This document shows positions 32,829 to 44,187 of a stretch of 64,000 bases of DNA, piece after piece (the stretch's first letter is position 1; each line of letters starts with the position of its first letter). Under the pieces are notes generated by a model. It did no database searches, had not been told where the DNA came from, and saw nothing but the letters and a program-made list of their open reading frames with translations. The translations under genes were made by a program, and so were the position numbers. Origin of the DNA: Gaiella occulta. GTDB lineage: Bacteria; Actinomycetota; Thermoleophilia; Gaiellales; Gaiellaceae. The stretch covers positions 370,001-434,000 of the forward strand of contig NZ_QQZY01000002.1 of NCBI RefSeq assembly GCF_003351045.1, in the 5' to 3' direction.

Positions 32829-33164
32829 ATGCCGTTCAAAGCCACCCCGGTGTACGTCACCAAGGCTGCGCTCTTCCGCACGCTCGGGCACCCGGCGCGG
32901 GTCCGCATCCTCGAGCTGCTGCGCGACGGCGAGCTCTCCGTCGGCACGCTGCAGGAGGAGCTCGGGATCGACTCGGGCGGCACGTCGCAGCACCTCGCGG
33001 CCCTGCGGCGCATCGGGCTCGTCGACTCGCGACGGGAAGGCACGAGCGTCTACTACCGCGCCGCCGACCCGCAGGTGTTCGCGCTCCTCGAGGTCGGACG
33101 CGCTCTCATCGCCCGCGCCCTCGCCGAGCAGCAGGCGCTGCTCGAGGAGCTCTCGGCGGAATGA
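32829..33164 (+). CDS. ArsR-family transcriptional regulator of the hyf operon
   Basis: Winged-helix repressor of 111 residues: FRTLGHPARVRILELLRDGE, then the recognition helix SGGTSQHLAALRRIGLV and wing SRREGTSVYYRAA. It contains no cysteine at all, so the classic ArsR metal site is absent; the signal is probably not a thiophilic metal. It is the first gene of the hydrogenase-like operon, overlapping hyfB by 4 bases, and probably autoregulates through the palindrome at 32809-32822. Confidence 0.88.
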   Translation: MPFKATPVYVTKAALFRTLGHPARVRILELLRDGELSVGTLQEELGIDSGGTSQHLAALRRIGLVDSRREGTSVYYRAADPQVFALLEVGRALIARALAEQQALLEELSAE

Positions 33165-35101
33165 TCGCGATCTTCCTCGCCGGCGTCGCCGCGGTCGCCC
33201 TCGGCGGCATGCTCGGCGCCGCTCCGAAGCGGCTCGCCGCCGCGCTGCTGCTGCAGGCGGCCGGTGCGCTCGCGATCGGCGTCGCGGGATTCTGGGCGCT
33301 CGCCGACGGCGGCAGCTGGGGCGCCTCCTTCACGAGCACGTTGACGCCCCACTTCGGCGTCGACGGACTCAGCGGGCTCTTCCTCGGCACGCTCGGGCTG
33401 ATCGCGTCTCCGGCGCTCGTGTTCGCCTCGGCCTACCTGCAGCAGGCGGGCCCGGGGCGCGCCACGGGCGTCCTCACGAGCGCGTTCATCCTCGCGCTCG
33501 TCGGCGTGCTCTGCGCCCGCGACGCGATCTCGTTCCTGCTCTTCTGGGAGCTCATGACGCTCGTGCCGGCGGCGATCATCCTCGTCGGCCGCAGCAGCCG
33601 CTCGGCGCGGCACACCGTCTTCACGTACGTCGCGATCACCCACCTCGGAGGGGCAGGCACCTGGATCTCCCTCCTGCTGCTCGCGCGCGAGGGCGCGATC
33701 GGCAACCCTGCCGCGCTCGCCCAAGGCTCCGGCGCCCAGACGCTGATCGCGCTCACGGCGATCGTCGGCTTCGGCACCAAGGCTGGGTTGATGCCGATGC
33801 ACGCCTGGCTTCCCCGCGCCCACCCGATCGCGCCCTCGTACGTGTCGGCGCTGATGAGCGGCATCATGGTCGCCATCGCGGCCTACGGGCTCGTGCGCGT
33901 GCTCGTCGACTGGCTCGGCACCCCGCCGCCGTGGGTCGGCGCGACGGTGCTCGTGCTCGGCGGCCTGTCGGCCGTCGGCGGGATCACCTACGCGCTCTTC
34001 CAGCGCGACCTCAAGCGGCTGCTCGCCTACTCGACCGTGGAGCACCTCGGCATCGTCGCCCTCGGCCTCGGCGCAAGCCTGCTGCTGCGCACCCGCGGCG
34101 CCGACGAATGGGCGGCGTTCGCGCTCGCCGCGGCGCTGCTCCACACCGTCAACCACGCCGTCTTCAAGGCGCTGCTCTTCCTCGGCGCCGGCACGTTCGA
34201 GCGCGCCACCGGCTCGCTCGAGCTCGACCGGCTCGGTGGTCTGCTGCGCCGGCTGCCGTGGAGCGGCGGTGCGTTCCTCGTCGGGGCGCTGGCGATCGCC
34301 GGGATGCCGCTGCTGAACGGCTTCGCCTCGGAATGGCTGACGCTGCAGTCGCTGCTGCACGTCCCCGGCGACGCCGGCGCCTGGGACGGCGCGCTCGCAG
34401 CCGCGGCGCTCGCCGCGCTCGCAGGGACGATGGCGCTGGCGCTGCTCTGCTTCGTGAAGGTGATCGGGCTCGTGCTGCTCGGGCCGCCACGCCGGTCGGC
34501 GTGCGCGGAGGCGGTGGAGCCCCCGGTGGCGATGCGGCTGCCGCTCGTCGCGCTCGCCGCGGTCACGGTCGTCCTCGGCGCCGTGCCCGGTCTGCTCTTC
34601 TCCCGTCTCACGGGCCTCGCGCCGTGGGGCGGCGACCTGCCGGCCCGCGCAGGACTGTCGCTGCCGGGGACGGGCGGGCTTCCCACGCTCGGCCTGCTCG
34701 TCGTCGTCGCCGGCCTCGGCGGCCTGCTGTGGCGTCTGCGCGGAGAGCGGCGCGCCGCCCCGAGCCCGACGTGGGCGAGCGGCCAGGCCGTCGAGCCACA
34801 GCTTCTGTGGACGAGCGCCGGCTTCACGAAGCCGCTGCGGCTCGTCCTCGAGGCGGTGCTGCGGCCCGAGCGCGAGATCGAGGTGACGCAGCGCCGAGGC
34901 GTCGTCCAGGAGGTGTCCTACAGCGGCCGCGTTCCCCACCTGATCGACATCCACCTCTACCGGCCGGTCACGGACGGCGCCCTCGTCGCCGCGGCATTTG
35001 CACGCCGCCTGCAGAGCGGCCGGCTCGGCACCTACGTCACCTACCTCGTCGCCCTCGTCGTCGCACTGCTGATCGCCGTGCGCATCGGGGTGATCGGATG
35101 A
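33161..35101 (+). CDS. hyfB: hydrogenase-4 component B-like proton-pumping membrane subunit
   Basis: NuoL/Mrp-type membrane subunit of 646 residues with about 14-16 helices. The antiporter-like core shows DAISFLLFWELMTLVPA, GFGTKAGLMPMHAWLPRAHP with the conserved Lys and His, LKRLLAYSTVEHLGIVALGL and NHAVFKALLFLGAGT. The C-terminus is the HyfB-type tail (VSYSGRVPHLIDIHLYRPV). It probably conducts protons when coupled to HyfG/HyfI redox chemistry. Confidence 0.9.
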   Translation: MIAIFLAGVAAVALGGMLGAAPKRLAAALLLQAAGALAIGVAGFWALADGGSWGASFTSTLTPHFGVDGLSGLFLGTLGLIASPALVFASAYLQQAGPGRATGVLTSAFILALVGVLCARDAISFLLFWELMTLVPAAIILVGRSSRSARHTVFTYVAITHLGGAGTWISLLLLAREGAIGNPAALAQGSGAQTLIALTAIVGFGTKAGLMPMHAWLPRAHPIAPSYVSALMSGIMVAIAAYGLVRVLVDWLGTPPPWVGATVLVLGGLSAVGGITYALFQRDLKRLLAYSTVEHLGIVALGLGASLLLRTRGADEWAAFALAAALLHTVNHAVFKALLFLGAGTFERATGSLELDRLGGLLRRLPWSGGAFLVGALAIAGMPLLNGFASEWLTLQSLLHVPGDAGAWDGALAAAALAALAGTMALALLCFVKVIGLVLLGPPRRSACAEAVEPPVAMRLPLVALAAVTVVLGAVPGLLFSRLTGLAPWGGDLPARAGLSLPGTGGLPTLGLLVVVAGLGGLLWRLRGERRAAPSPTWASGQAVEPQLLWTSAGFTKPLRLVLEAVLRPEREIEVTQRRGVVQEVSYSGRVPHLIDIHLYRPVTDGALVAAAFARRLQSGRLGTYVTYLVALVVALLIAVRIGVIG

Positions 35102-36024
35102 CCGCGCAGACGGTCGTGGCGGGGATGGAGCAGGTCGTCGGCGGCGTCGCCGCGGCACCGCTGCTCGTCGGGTTGACGCAGCAGGGGAAGGCCCTGCTGC
35201 AGGGGCGCCGCGGACCCGGGCCGCTGCAGCCGTACCGCGAGCTGCGGCGCCTGTGGGGCAAGAGCGCCGTCGACGTCGACGGGTCGACGATCGTGTATCG
35301 CCTCGCCCCCGTGCTCGTCGCGGCGGCGACGGGGGCGGCGATCCTGCTCGTCCCCGCCGCCGACCGCGCGCCCGGCTTCGGCGTCGGCCACGACGCGCTC
35401 GCGCTCGCGGGCCTGCTCGCGCTCGCGCGGCTCGCCGTCTGCGCGGCCGCCTGGGACGTCTCCAACGGGTTCGCGCTCCAGGGCGCGAGCCGTGACCTGA
35501 CGCTGTCGGTGTTCGTGGAGGCGGCGCTCGTGCTCTCGCTCGCCGTCGCGGCGCTCGTCGCCGGCACGACCGACCTGCGCGGCGTCGTCGCGGGCAACGC
35601 CGGCTTCGAGCCGTGGTCGACGCCTGCTCTCGCGCTCGGCGCCGCTGCGTTCCTGCTCGTCGTGATCGCCGAGACGGGACGGCAGCCGGTCGACAACCCG
35701 GACACCCACCTCGAGCTGACGATGATCCACGAGGGGCCCGTGCTCGAGTTCGGCGGGCGCGACCAGGCGCTCTTGCAGTGGGCCGTGGCCGCCCGGCACT
35801 GGATCGTGCTCGTGCTCGCCGCGGAGGTGTTCCTGCCCCATCCGCGGGGCACGTGGTGGCAGCTCGTGCTGCTGCCGCTCTCGCTCGCGCTCCTCTGCGG
35901 CGTGCTCTCCGTCACGGAGACGCTGCTCGCCAAGATGCGCATCCTGCTCGTGCCGCGCCTCATCGGCGTCGGCGCGGCCATGGCGCTGCTCGGCATCGTC
36001 ACCCGGCTCGTGGAGGGCACGTGA
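35098..36024 (+). CDS. hyfC: hydrogenase-4 component C-like (NuoH-like) membrane subunit
   Basis: NuoH/HycD-type membrane anchor of 308 residues linking the hydrophilic redox arm to the proton-pumping arm. The family marks are KALLQGRRGPGPLQPYRELRRLWGK at the N-terminus and GRQPVDNPDTHLELTMIHEG in the middle loop, corresponding to the quinone-cavity loop of NuoH. About eight helices. The ATG overlaps the hyfB stop by 4 bases. Confidence 0.9.
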   Translation: MTAQTVVAGMEQVVGGVAAAPLLVGLTQQGKALLQGRRGPGPLQPYRELRRLWGKSAVDVDGSTIVYRLAPVLVAAATGAAILLVPAADRAPGFGVGHDALALAGLLALARLAVCAAAWDVSNGFALQGASRDLTLSVFVEAALVLSLAVAALVAGTTDLRGVVAGNAGFEPWSTPALALGAAAFLLVVIAETGRQPVDNPDTHLELTMIHEGPVLEFGGRDQALLQWAVAARHWIVLVLAAEVFLPHPRGTWWQLVLLPLSLALLCGVLSVTETLLAKMRILLVPRLIGVGAAMALLGIVTRLVEGT

Positions 36025-36632
36025 GCGGAGGTCTCGCATGGGCCCTCGTCGCGCTCGGCATCGGCGTCGTCGTCGTCCGCAGGCGGTCGGTCGCGGTCGG
36101 GCTCGTCACCGCGCAGGCGCTCCTGCTCGGTGCCTCGGCCCTGCGCGACGGCGTCTCGGGCGAGGCGGCGCCGGCCGCCGGGGCGCTGGCACTGCGCGGC
36201 CTCCTGCTCGCCGGGCTGTTCCTGTTCCTCGTCCGCCGCACGCGGGAGACGCGGCCGGTGCGAGCCGGTGTCGCGCCGCTCGCCCGCGCCGCGGCGGCGG
36301 TCGTGCTCGTGCTGGCGCTGATCTGGCTCGTCCCGACGATCGGGCTCGACTCGCAGCAGGCGGAGCGGGCCACGCTCGCCCTCGTGGCGATCGGGCTCGT
36401 GACCGCGGCGACGCGCCGGGCGACGCTCTTCCAGGTGCTGGGCATCGTCCTCGTCGAGAACGGGCTCGCGCTCGCGGCGCTCTCGCTGCCGGGCACGTCG
36501 TCTCTCGCGATCGAGATAGGCGTCGCGGTCGACCTGCTGCTCGTCGCCCTCGTCGCGGGCGTGTTCCACGACCGCATCTTCGCCGAGTTCGGCGCCGGCG
36601 ACTCCGCGGTGCTGAGGAGCCTGCGTGACTAG
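36021..36632 (+). CDS. hyfE: hydrogenase-4 component E-like (NuoK-like) membrane subunit
   Basis: Membrane protein of 203 residues with six or so helices, matching HyfE in length and operon position. The conserved part is VLVENGLALAALSLPGTSSLAIEIGV, which carries the NuoK-like membrane glutamates. It starts at GTG 36021 with a 4-base overlap from hyfC and overlaps hyfF by 8 bases. Confidence 0.82.
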   Translation: MSGGLAWALVALGIGVVVVRRRSVAVGLVTAQALLLGASALRDGVSGEAAPAAGALALRGLLLAGLFLFLVRRTRETRPVRAGVAPLARAAAAVVLVLALIWLVPTIGLDSQQAERATLALVAIGLVTAATRRATLFQVLGIVLVENGLALAALSLPGTSSLAIEIGVAVDLLLVALVAGVFHDRIFAEFGAGDSAVLRSLRD

Positions 36633-38088
36633 CCGCGAGTGGCTCGCTGCCGCGGTGCTCGCCGCGCCGCTTCTCGGGATCGCCGCGGTCGCGGCGGCGC
36701 CGCGCCGCCTGCTCGCACGCACCTGCGTCGCGGCCGCGATCGTCACCGCCGCGGCCGCGGCGGCGCTCTCCGCCGTCGCGCTCGCGACTCCCGGGCAGCG
36801 GGTGCTGGGACGGTGGCTCGTCGTCGACGCGGCGGGCGGGCTGCTCGTCGGCGTGATCGGCGTCGTCGGGCTCGCGAGCGCGCTCGTCTCTCCTCCGTTC
36901 CTCGCCGGCCGGCGGGGATCGCTCTTCCGTGCAGACCGGGCCGAGCGCGTCTACTGGGCGACGCTGTTCGCGTTCTGGGCCGTCCTGCTCGCCGTCCCGC
37001 TCGCGGGCAACCTCGGCGCCGCCTGGCTCGCGATCGAGGCGACGACCGCGGCGTCGGCGCTCCTCGTCGGCTTCAGCGGCCGTCCCCGCGCCCTCGAGGC
37101 CGGATGGAAGTACCTCATCCTGACCTCGCTCGGCCTCGGCGTGGCCCTGCTCGGCATCGTCGTGCTCGGGGCGGCCGCCGGCGGCGGCGGGCTGGAGACG
37201 CTCACCTGGCGCTCGCTCCCGCACGCGACGCTCGAACCGGATGTCACACTCGTCGCCTACGTGCTGCTGCTCGCGGGGCTCGCGGCGAAGATCGGCTGGG
37301 CGCCCGTCCACAACTGGCTGCCGGACGCGCACTCGGAGGCGCCCGCCCCGGTGTCGGCGCTTCTCTCGGCGGCGCTCCTGCCGGCGGTGCTGCTCGTCGC
37401 ATGGCGCTCGCAGCAGGCGCTCGCCCCGACGATCGGCGCGGGCACCGGCGGCGGCGTGCTCGTCGCGTTCGGGCTGCTCTCGCTCGCCGTCGCGGTGCCG
37501 TTCCTGTGGCGGGCGCAGGCGTGGAAGCGTCTGCTCGCGTACTCGAGCCTCGAGCACATGGGTGTGATCGCGCTCGGGATCGGCTTCGGCGGGCCGCTCG
37601 CGCTGGCAGGGGTCGCTGTCCACATCGCCGGGCACGCGCTCGCGAAGGCGCTCGGCTTCTACGCCGCGACGCCGCTGCTCGGGCACGAGCCGCGCGCGGC
37701 CGGCCACGCCGCGGGCGGGATCGGGCGTACGCAGCCGGCGCTCGGAGCCTCGCTCGGCATCTCGCTGGGCGCGCTCGCCGGGCTGCCGCCGTCGCCGCTC
37801 TTCGTCAGCGAGGTGCTGATCGTGGCGGGAGGCTTCCAGGTGGGACGTCCGTGGGCAGCGGGAGGGGCAGCCATCCTGCTCGCGCTCGGCTTCCTCGGCC
37901 TCGCCCACGCCCTCGTCGAGACCGTGATCGGCAAGGCGCGGCGGCGCGACCGCCGCATCGCGCCCGGGCTCGCCCCGGTCGTCGCGCTCACGGCCGTCGC
38001 GGCGGCGGCGCTGCTCGCACTCACCGCCGTCGCGGTGTGGCTGCCGGGCTCGGCTATCGTCGACGGTCTCCTGCGGGGGCTCGCATGA
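36625..38088 (+). CDS. hyfF: hydrogenase-4 component F-like (NuoN/M-like) membrane subunit
   Basis: Second antiporter-like subunit, 487 residues. WLAIEATTAASALLVGF, LAAKIGWAPVHNWLPDAHSE (with conserved Lys) and WKRLLAYSSLEHMGVIALGI follow the NuoM/HyfF pattern, then HIAGHALAKALGFYAATPLL. The start at GTG 36625 lies within the end of hyfE. With HyfB this gives the complex two potential proton channels. Confidence 0.88.
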   Translation: MTSREWLAAAVLAAPLLGIAAVAAAPRRLLARTCVAAAIVTAAAAAALSAVALATPGQRVLGRWLVVDAAGGLLVGVIGVVGLASALVSPPFLAGRRGSLFRADRAERVYWATLFAFWAVLLAVPLAGNLGAAWLAIEATTAASALLVGFSGRPRALEAGWKYLILTSLGLGVALLGIVVLGAAAGGGGLETLTWRSLPHATLEPDVTLVAYVLLLAGLAAKIGWAPVHNWLPDAHSEAPAPVSALLSAALLPAVLLVAWRSQQALAPTIGAGTGGGVLVAFGLLSLAVAVPFLWRAQAWKRLLAYSSLEHMGVIALGIGFGGPLALAGVAVHIAGHALAKALGFYAATPLLGHEPRAAGHAAGGIGRTQPALGASLGISLGALAGLPPSPLFVSEVLIVAGGFQVGRPWAAGGAAILLALGFLGLAHALVETVIGKARRRDRRIAPGLAPVVALTAVAAAALLALTAVAVWLPGSAIVDGLLRGLA

Positions 38089-39494
38089 CAACGGCGCTTC
38101 TCGGCGGCAAGGCCTATCGCGAGGCGGTCGCGGCGGCGCTCGCGGACGGCTGGCGCTTCGCCGGCCTCCACGCCACGGCCGCCGCAGACGGCCCGGTGGT
38201 GCACGCGCTGCTCGTCTGCCCCGCCGGCGAGACCCGCATCGAGAGCGTCGCCGCGCACGAGGGAACGGTGCCGACGATCGTCGACCTCGCTCCCGCCGCC
38301 GGATGGGACGAGCGCGAGGCGCACGACCTCTACGGTGTCGGCTTCGACGGCCACGAGCCGCTACGCCCACTCGTCGACCACGACGTGCCGCTCGAGCGCT
38401 TTGCGACGCCGGTACGCGGCCCAGATCCCTATCAGGTCGCGGTGGGACCGATCCACGCAGGCGTGATCGAGTCGGGCCACTTCCGCTTCCACGTCGTCGG
38501 CGATCGGATCCTGCACGTCGACGTGCGCCTGTTCTACAAGCACCGCGGGCTCGAGCGCGCAGCGGAGGGGCTCCCGCTCGCCGACGGGCTCCGTGTCGCG
38601 TCGCGCGCCTGCGCCGCCTGCTGGGTGACGAACGCCGTCGCCTACGCGCACGCGTGCGAGGAGCTGCTCGGACTGACGCCGACGCCCGAGCTCGCGCGGG
38701 CGCGGACGATCCTGCTCGAGCTCGAGCGCGTCTGGAACACGCTCAACGACATCGGCGCCGTCTGCGCGGGCGTCGGGCTCGCTGCCGGCAACACCCGCTT
38801 CGCGGCGCTCGTCGACGACGCCCGCAGGCTCAACGCACGGCTCACCGGGCATCGCTTCCTGTTCGGCTCCGTCGCCGTCGGCGGCAGCGCGCTCGACCTC
38901 GACGCGCACGCGGTCGCCGACGCGCGGGAGACGCTTGCCCGCATCCGCGCGGAGTCGTCACGGGCGTGGCGGGAGCTCCTCTTCAACGGATCGTTCATGG
39001 ACCGCATGCCCGACATCGGCGTCGTCGACGCGGAGGCCGCACGCACGCTCGGGGTCGTCGGCCCGGCGGCACGCGCGGCCGGCCTCGCCGAGGATGCGCG
39101 CACGACGAGCCCGCGTCTCGCCTACGACGGCTTCGCGCCCGCAGCACTGCGGCGCCAGGCGGGCGACGTCCAGGCGCGCCTCGAGCAGCGCGCGCTCGAG
39201 CTGCTGCCCTGTCTCGACATCCTCGATCGCCTGCTTGCCGAGCCGGTGCGGCCGGCCGCGGCCCGCCCCGGCGGCACGGGCTCGGCGATCGGCGTCGGCC
39301 GCGTGGAGAGCGCGCGCGGGGTGACCTCGTGCGTCGTCGAGCGTGACGGCGACCGCATCGGACGTCTGCGGCTGCGCACCGGCTCGTACGCGAACTGGCC
39401 CGCGGTCGCCCACGCGGCGGCGCACAACCTGCTCCCCGACTTCCCGCTCATCAACAAGAGCTTCGAGCTCTGCTACGCCTGCGCCGACCGCTGA
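38085..39494 (+). CDS. hyfG: group 4 [NiFe]-hydrogenase large subunit (NuoC-NuoD fusion type)
   Basis: Catalytic large subunit of 469 residues. The first 120 residues form a NuoC-like domain (GWDEREAHDLYGVGFDGH). The NuoD-like domain has KHRGLERAAEGLPLADGLR. Both NiFe-ligand pairs are present: Cys176/Cys179 in RACAACW and Cys463/Cys466 in the terminal CYACADR. The protein stops exactly at the Arg where relatives such as HycE are cleaved during maturation, so no C-terminal extension exists and no processing peptidase should be needed. The usual Asp before the last pair is missing (ELCYAC). Confidence 0.88.
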   Translation: MTTALLGGKAYREAVAAALADGWRFAGLHATAAADGPVVHALLVCPAGETRIESVAAHEGTVPTIVDLAPAAGWDEREAHDLYGVGFDGHEPLRPLVDHDVPLERFATPVRGPDPYQVAVGPIHAGVIESGHFRFHVVGDRILHVDVRLFYKHRGLERAAEGLPLADGLRVASRACAACWVTNAVAYAHACEELLGLTPTPELARARTILLELERVWNTLNDIGAVCAGVGLAAGNTRFAALVDDARRLNARLTGHRFLFGSVAVGGSALDLDAHAVADARETLARIRAESSRAWRELLFNGSFMDRMPDIGVVDAEAARTLGVVGPAARAAGLAEDARTTSPRLAYDGFAPAALRRQAGDVQARLEQRALELLPCLDILDRLLAEPVRPAAARPGGTGSAIGVGRVESARGVTSCVVERDGDRIGRLRLRTGSYANWPAVAHAAAHNLLPDFPLINKSFELCYACADR

Positions 39495-42518: not shown

Positions 42519-44187
42519 CCCGGGTCGTTCATTTGCAGGTCGGGCCGTGCGCTCTCGCGGTCGGGTGATGTGCGCCTGGGCAGGGAGGATTGGAGGTGTC
42601 GAAGCCCCATCTCCCTGCCCAGGAGGATCACCATGCAGGTGAAGCGTACGGAGCTGGTTGAGAGCGTACAAATCGTGGCGGACGCCGACCGTTTGACCTC
42701 GCGGGCAGGTACCGCCGTCCTCGCCGGGCTCGCTGACCGGGTCGGTCTGGCCGGGGCGCTCGCGCAGGCGATGGTGGGTGTGCGCCAGCGTCGCTCGCGC
42801 CACGATCCCGGCCGGACGCTGTGTGATCTGGCGGTGATGCTCGCCGATGGCGGCGACTGCCTGGCCGACCTGAGCGCGCTGCGCGACCAGCCGGCCCTGT
42901 TCGGCGAGGTCGCCTCCGATGCCACCGCCTGGCGGGCGCTCGCCGCGCTCGACCCGCAGCGGCTGGTGGCGGTGCGCCAGGCGCGGGCGAAGGCGCGGGC
43001 GCACGTCTGGGAGCTGGCCGGGGCGCCGCGGCGTGTCGTCCTCGACCTCGACGCGACGCTGATCACCGCCCACTCCGACAAGGAGCAGGCGGCCGGCAAC
43101 TACAAGCACGGCTTCGGCTTCCATCCGCTGCTCTGCTACGAGGCGGAGACGGACGAGGCGCGGGCGGGTGTGTTGCGGCCCGGCAACGCGGGCGCCAACA
43201 CGGCCGCTGACCACGTCGCGGTGCTCGACCTCGCGCTGGCGCAGCTGCCCGAGGGGGCGGTCGGGCCGGGGCTGTTGGTGCGGGCCGACTCCGGCGGGGC
43301 GACCCACGCCTTCCTCGACCACGTCGTCGAGCGCGGCTTCCGCTTCTCGGTCGGCTTCGACCTGACCGAGCCGGTCAGGGAGGCGATCCTCGCCGTGCCC
43401 GAGCAGGCCTGGCGGCCGGCGCTCACCCAGGCGGGCGAGCAGCGCGAGGGGGCGGCCGTGGCCGAGCTCGCCCTCGACCTGGAGGGCAACGGCTGGCCGG
43501 CCGGCACGCGGGCGATCTGCCGCCGGGAGCGGCCGCACCCGGGCGCGCAGCTCTCCTTCACCGACGACAACGGTTACCGCTTCCAGGTCTTCATCACCAA
43601 CCAGCAGGGCAGGAGGATCGAGCGGCTCGAGCAGCTCCACCGCCAGCACGCCGTGGTCGAGGACCGGATCCGCTGCGGCAAGGACACCGGGCTGCGCAAC
43701 CTCCCCTTCCGCGCGTTCGCCGCCAACACGGCCTGGCTCGAGCTCGTCCTCTGCGCGCAGGATCTGCTCGCCTGGACGCAGCGGCTCCTGCTCAGCGGCG
43801 AACTCGCCCGCTGCGAGCCGAAGCGGCTGCGCTACCGGCTCCTCCACGTCGCCGGCCGGCTCACCCGCCACGCTCGGCGGCTGCGCCTCCACCTCCCCCG
43901 CGGCTGGGCCTGGGGCAACGAGCTCGTCGAGGCGTTCGCGCGCCTGCGCGCGCTCCCGCAGGCACCATAGGCCCGCAGGCACCATAGGCCGCAGCCAGTC
44001 GCGTTCGCACACTGACCCAGCAGGACAACGGGGCCTCGGCCTGCTCGCGAACGCCGCCCCGACGGCCTCGCGCCTGCTCAACCAACCCACGAGTGCCGAG
44101 CGCCCAACCCGCGAGAGCACACTGCTCGCCCGACCGGCCGAGGGCGCCGCCCGAACGCGGCCTCACCCGCCTATCGAACGATCCGGG
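42519..44187 (+). mobile_element. IS1380-family insertion sequence, apparently complete
   Basis: Element of about 1.67 kb bounded by imperfect inverted repeats: left CCCGGGTCGTTC (from 42519) and right GAACGATCCGGG (ending 44187), matching at 11 of 12 positions. It contains one transposase gene with its own Shine-Dalgarno. The flanks are CTAG on the left and CTAA on the right, so a perfect 4-base target duplication is not present. Roughly 200 bases between the transposase stop and the right repeat hold no gene. Confidence 0.8.
42633..43970 (+). CDS. IS1380-family transposase
   Basis: DDE transposase of 445 residues, intact. Recognisable blocks: SRHDPGRTLCDLAVMLADGG near residue 60, LDLDATLITAHSDKEQAAGNY with catalytic Asp, LLVRADSGGATHAFLDHVVE with the second Asp, and VEDRIRCGKDTGLRNLPFRA with the third catalytic acid and Mutator-like Tyr/Arg context. 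AGGAGG lies about 6 bases before the ATG. Confidence 0.92.
   Translation: MQVKRTELVESVQIVADADRLTSRAGTAVLAGLADRVGLAGALAQAMVGVRQRRSRHDPGRTLCDLAVMLADGGDCLADLSALRDQPALFGEVASDATAWRALAALDPQRLVAVRQARAKARAHVWELAGAPRRVVLDLDATLITAHSDKEQAAGNYKHGFGFHPLLCYEAETDEARAGVLRPGNAGANTAADHVAVLDLALAQLPEGAVGPGLLVRADSGGATHAFLDHVVERGFRFSVGFDLTEPVREAILAVPEQAWRPALTQAGEQREGAAVAELALDLEGNGWPAGTRAICRRERPHPGAQLSFTDDNGYRFQVFITNQQGRRIERLEQLHRQHAVVEDRIRCGKDTGLRNLPFRAFAANTAWLELVLCAQDLLAWTQRLLLSGELARCEPKRLRYRLLHVAGRLTRHARRLRLHLPRGWAWGNELVEAFARLRALPQAP

Follow-up and report, generated by a model that had tools for sequence, protein, structure and literature searches.

Whether a protein that carries both cysteine pairs of a [NiFe] site is thereby the catalytic subunit of a hydrogenase is the question raised by an open reading frame at positions 38085-39494 (+ strand) of the window, that is, of the whole 64,000-nucleotide stretch of DNA analyzed here. 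The frame encodes a group 4-type large subunit of 469 amino acids with two CxxC pairs, Cys176/179 and Cys463/466, and a C-terminus that reads ...NKSFELCYACADR*, with CYACADR as the last residues. The original prediction regarded it as a [NiFe] subunit that skips C-terminal processing. Judged from sequence, we consider it instead, with a probability of about 0.75, to belong, as the large subunit, to an Ehr-like, redox-driven ion pump of six subunits that derives from a hydrogenase, is independent of Hyp maturation proteins, and is probably not a hydrogenase itself. The complex was found in one actinobacterial class, probably Thermoleophilia.

The top sequence match of the protein among solved structures is Escherichia coli HycE, over residues 94-469 (E 8.7e-50), and an AlphaFold model with a mean pLDDT of 85.5 also has HycE as its best solved structural match (TM 0.90); it scores below the cut-offs that NCBIfam curates for NuoD and for the hydrogenase 4 subunits. 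HycE/HyfG of the E. coli formate hydrogenlyase (group 4a) shares the domain layout but differs in having a cleaved extension, a DPC motif, and CGICxxxH. The last residue of our protein aligns with the R of HycE CYSCTDR, which we take to be the residue after which the HycE precursor is cut, and falls at the same place in Pyrococcus furiosus MbhL. The two ligand pairs and a stop exactly at the HycE-type cleavage point are therefore present as predicted and, as the subunit has no C-terminal extension, no HycI-type endopeptidase would be needed. The proposal that this end is a special trait did not survive comparison: all relatives read to the end, Cys-bearing "group 4f-like" proteins and Cys-less Ehr proteins alike, end at this position and carry no extension. 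The missing extension is thus a trait of the wider family, and the idea that it is peculiar to this protein was rejected.

Some residues around the pocket are those of a hydrogenase and others are not. Arg411 of the PRG motif is present, as is Glu129, which aligns with MbhL Glu21. The L1 motif is abnormal, RACAACWVTN, with Asn where His is usual, and does not match the RxCGxCxxxH signature of [NiFe] hydrogenases. Glu461 occupies the -2 position of the last Cys pair, where Asp is usual; the absence of this Asp, pointed out in the original prediction, extends to all 48 aligned members of the clade described below and to 9/9 compared Cys-bearing relatives. A further cysteine, Cys416 (window 39330-39332), follows the PRG motif in 45 of 48 clade members, the compared Cys-bearing relatives having mostly His there; it is possibly an extra thiol near the pocket.

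The gene overlaps the stop of the preceding gene and the start of the next one by a few bases, and therefore belongs to a tight operon, whose order is ArsR, HyfB, HyfC, HyfE, HyfF, HyfG, and HyfI (Table 1).

Table 1. Features of the operon and of the large-subunit gene (window positions).
Feature	Position	Strand	Remarks
ArsR/SmtB-family regulator	32829..33164	+	NCBIfam HTH_metalloreg 9.5e-26
HyfB-like antiporter-type membrane subunit	33161..35101	+	PF00361; hydrogenase 4 subunit B model 2e-136, under curated cut-off
HyfC/HycD/NuoH-like membrane anchor subunit	35098..36024	+	PF00146 6.9e-36
HyfE-like membrane subunit	36021..36632	+	hydrogenase 4 membrane subunit model 1.6e-12, under cut-off
HyfF-like antiporter-type membrane subunit	36625..38088	+	PF00361; hydrogenase 4 subunit F models ~1e-75, under cut-off
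HyfG-like large subunit	38085..39494	+	NuoC-like domain + NuoD/HycE-like domain, 469 aa, no C-terminal extension
L1 pair codons, Cys176-Ala-Ala-Cys179	38610..38621	+	position 183 = Asn, not His
L2 pair and protein end codons, Cys463-Tyr-Ala-Cys466-Ala-Asp-Arg469	39471..39491	+	
HyfI-like small subunit, 151 aa	39494..39949	+	PF01058 2.6e-26

The membrane arm has the make-up of a pump. The residues Glu130, Lys207, Lys285, and Lys336 of HyfB, Glu192, Glu206, and Glu212 of HyfC, and Glu138, Lys222, Lys301, and Lys341 of HyfF are invariant in 19 clade loci. HyfI keeps the ligands of the proximal [4Fe-4S] cluster, Cys36, 39, 103, and 133, and the proximal-cluster cysteines are likewise invariant (19/19 clade loci). 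Its N-terminal ferredoxin-type 2x[4Fe-4S] domain is absent in 23/23 clade loci; most relatives have this domain, whole or in part, with the exception of L131 and L144, which are without it, and of L132, where it lies in a separate frame.

With crude gene calling, no gene for a formate dehydrogenase (FDH), a ferredoxin or a peptidase turned out to be conserved next to the operon in the clade loci, which sets the complex apart from formate hydrogenlyase, and the window is free of hyp genes, as had been stated. Only the ArsR gene recurs: it adjoins the operon in almost every clade locus whose flanks extend far enough, varying in position and strand, and also stands beside the operon in Chloroflexi relatives and in one actinobacterial Ehr locus (L113). 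The latter, of the Rv0081-Rv0087 type, combines ArsR with the same subunits, but the mycobacterial-type large subunits that were read (L020, L021, L191; M. tuberculosis lay outside the set) lack all four cysteines, even though Rv0082-Rv0087 of M. tuberculosis has been described as a putative NiFe hydrogenase complex. Elsewhere in the window, a 466-aa frame at 42570-43970 resembles an IS1380-type transposase, as judged by eye.

A search of the phylum yielded a tight clade of proteins with 53-62% identity, and a search of one actinobacterial class (probably Thermoleophilia; 399 genomes, most of them MAGs) placed the clade in 52/399 genomes. Cys176, Cys463, and Cys466 are invariant in the 48 aligned members. 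Cys179 is kept in 43 of them and replaced by Asp in four, which form one sub-clade, and by Gly in a single member. None of the 48 has the L1 His (Asn in 45, Ser in two, Thr in one), which is present in 9/9 compared Cys-bearing relatives. Scanning a genome collection brought up further Cys-keeping relatives in Bacillota, Chloroflexi, Planctomycetes, Acidobacteria, and Myxococcota, together with many Cys-less Ehr proteins.

In a tree from which the ligand columns were excluded, computed by a quick method with no bootstrap, the clade forms one group (support 100) on a long stem of 1.23 changes per column, and is nested among Cys-bearing relatives, those from Chloroflexi being nearest (SH-aLRT 87-95 for the enclosing branches). 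The Cys-less Ehr proteins lie outside, save for one Nitrospiraceae pair near the base. The cysteines of the clade are therefore most simply retained and not regained. For the [NiFe]-hydrogenase phylogeny proposed earlier, this places the subunit among Cys-bearing, extension-less relatives.

We apply the label "group 4f" to these relatives by inference, from their hosts and from published descriptions (PMC9888536, PMC7248197, PMC9431212), one of which treats group 4f as hypothetical formate-coupled hydrogenases (PMC9431212). With group 4f (HydDB; Desulfitobacterium, Desulfosporosinus) the clade shares an operon of HyfB-, C-, E-, F-, G-, and I-like genes, the four cysteines, the end FELCYxCxDR without an extension, and its nesting among the Cys-bearing relatives, for which the 4f label is inferred. 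It differs in having Asn for the L1 His and often CAxC for CGxC, in lacking the HyfI ferredoxin domain, and in its independence of hyp genes. Ehr complexes, which are without CxxC, close to group 4f and of unassigned function in the literature (PMC10284858, PMC7304191, PMC6349859), share the subunit set, NuoB/NuoCD-like subunits included, the pump-type membrane arm, the protein end, and the dispensability of Hyp proteins; they have no ligand cysteines, whereas the clade keeps four and lies outside the Cys-less clades.

The genome search suggested in the original prediction found hypC, hypD, hypE, hypF, and a HycI-type peptidase gene on contig C1 of the same genome, beside a separate NiFe hydrogenase whose large subunit has the L1 motif RACGVCGGVH, a normal DPCMPCTTH end, and a C-terminal extension. 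By its make-up this second enzyme is of group-1h type; its locus (L003:13332-16657 and L004, contig C1:265331-277548) lies near CooC-like, AAA, and VWA genes. We judged it unlikely that these hyp genes and HycI serve the 38085-39494 subunit, since they flank the group-1h-type subunit with its extension, and it is apparently that separate hydrogenase that brings them into the genome. Their presence nevertheless counts against our reading, because the gene content alone is compatible with a NiFe cofactor in this organism.

Beyond this genome, HypC, HypD, HypF, and HycI were the maturation proteins scored across carriers, HypE being seen in the own genome only. HypD occurs in 17/52 carriers of the clade and 101/347 non-carriers of the class sample (399 genomes; Fisher p 0.63), so the two are not associated. 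Among 56 genomes examined for both, HypD instead tracks canonical NiFe large subunits (18/20 with versus 2/36 without), and the patterns of HypF_C, HypC, and HycI agree with that of HypD with few exceptions. HypC, HypD, HypF, HycI, and a canonical NiFe hydrogenase were all not found in the closed or near-closed carriers G078 (one contig, 99% complete), G480 (three contigs, 100%), and G497 and G658 (one contig each). With no HypD association, and with closed carriers that lack HypC, HypD, and HypF, the clade does not show dependence on Hyp maturation proteins.

It is very improbable that these results are artefacts of incomplete MAGs. Most genomes are indeed drafts, and two give reason for caution, G521 having HypC and HycI, and G311 a canonical NiFe subunit and HycI, in both cases with no HypD. 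However, several of the carrier genomes are closed or almost closed, the four genomes named above contradict this explanation, and HypC, HypF_C, HycI, and canonical NiFe subunits are for the most part absent from the same genomes.

The same data bear on whether the protein could be a true [NiFe] hydrogenase of the group 4f-like type without an extension, which would be matured in trans by hypC-F of the group-1h-type hydrogenase and need no peptidase. The four cysteines, Arg411, and Glu129, together with the hypC-F genes of the own genome, speak for such an enzyme, as does the HypD distribution among Cys-bearing relatives with an intact L1 His, which are mostly in HypD-positive genomes (12/15, versus 17/52 for the clade). 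We nonetheless consider it improbable, as the same protein and its cysteines persist without HypD, HypC, and HypF, closed genomes included, HypD association is absent, the L1 His is lost clade-wide, and the ferredoxin entry domain is gone. What stands of the proposed "[NiFe] subunit that skips processing" is thus the group 4 lineage, the four cysteines, and the lack of need for a peptidase; its status as a working [NiFe] subunit does not, given that the cysteines persist in many genomes without HypC, HypD, HypF, HycI, and a canonical NiFe hydrogenase. The absence of hyp genes, which the original prediction had linked to a cofactor-less complex, does not apply to the own genome, with its hypC-F, and does apply to most sister genomes.

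If the complex is a Hyp-independent pump, its pocket may be either empty or occupied. An ordinary cofactor-less Ehr-type pump, with cysteines left over or kept for packing, would be a sub-case of our main reading that competes with a metal site, and we regard it as a realistic though somewhat doubtful possibility. In Ehr relatives without cysteines the C-terminal motif is otherwise preserved (DFPLxNKSFNLSYxGNDL), and this segment therefore matters without cysteines; moreover, one clade member has Gly at 179. In the sulfane sulfur reductase MBS, two cysteines left from the former NiFe site can be removed without loss of activity in vitro (PMC7684303), because of which conserved cysteines are no proof of a metal. 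The conservation within the clade argues the other way: in the 32 HypD-minus members that were read, Cys176, Cys463, and Cys466 are each kept in 32/32, although the tree spans about 15 changes per column. Cys179 is kept in 27/32; all its losses are in HypD-minus members and amount to only two events, the Asp sub-clade and the single Gly, which are too few to serve as a test of a link with HypD. The sole stable replacement is Asp, which could possibly still serve as a metal ligand.

We suggest, tentatively and at somewhat less than even odds, that the NiFe ligand set (four Cys, or three Cys and Asp) has been taken over by a Hyp-independent metal center in a redox-driven ion pump, and that the clade may represent an extant transitional form linking group 4 hydrogenases to the Cys-less Ehr/complex I type. 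Under our main reading, which is the more probable one, a complex no longer dependent on Hyp proteins would have descended from extension-less group 4f-like [NiFe] hydrogenases. In sequence, its membrane arm has the Lys and Glu residues of redox-driven pumps and its small subunit a complete proximal [4Fe-4S] site. Since the usual ferredoxin entry domain is gone, electrons would have to enter or leave through another partner or directly at the pocket. The four-Cys pocket (three Cys and Asp in one sub-clade) would dispense with Fe(CN)2CO chemistry and either bind a metal independently of Hyp proteins or supply redox-active or structural thiols. A redox change at the pocket or at the proximal cluster would then power the movement of ions, in the manner of MBS and complex I.

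A further parallel is the MBS/Mbx sulfane sulfur reductase of P. furiosus, a hydrogenase-derived pump without NiFe that retains part of the ligand set (PMC7684303). MBS has two of the four cysteines, ferredoxin-type clusters, and a three-Cys proximal cluster, whereas the clade has four cysteines (or three and Asp), has lost the ferredoxin clusters, and keeps all four proximal-cluster cysteines. A view stated for MBS (PMC7684303) is that complex I arose as group 4 hydrogenases lost their four NiFe cysteines step by step. The clade shows another step, in which dependence on cofactor assembly would be lost with the ligands still under selection. It offers a defined protein for asking what replaced the NiFe site and what the widespread Ehr-like pumps react with, and it warns that four conserved cysteines are insufficient to annotate a gene as a hydrogenase. 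In a limited search of the open-access literature, we found no description of the four-Cys form in genomes without hyp genes.

Several relatives outside the clade deserve mention. The large subunits L094 and L095, with a canonical L1 and no extension, are identical at 499/500 residues in MAGs of different genera; they were not used as evidence for the class because such near-identity may reflect transfer or a shared contaminant. Five Negativicutes-type relatives (L125, L127, L129, L144, L189) also have Asn for the L1 His, and HypD is missing in three of their five genomes. In the Desulfosporosinus relative L124, each pair begins with Ser instead of Cys (ERISGIC ... YELSYAC), apparently a half-lost ligand set.
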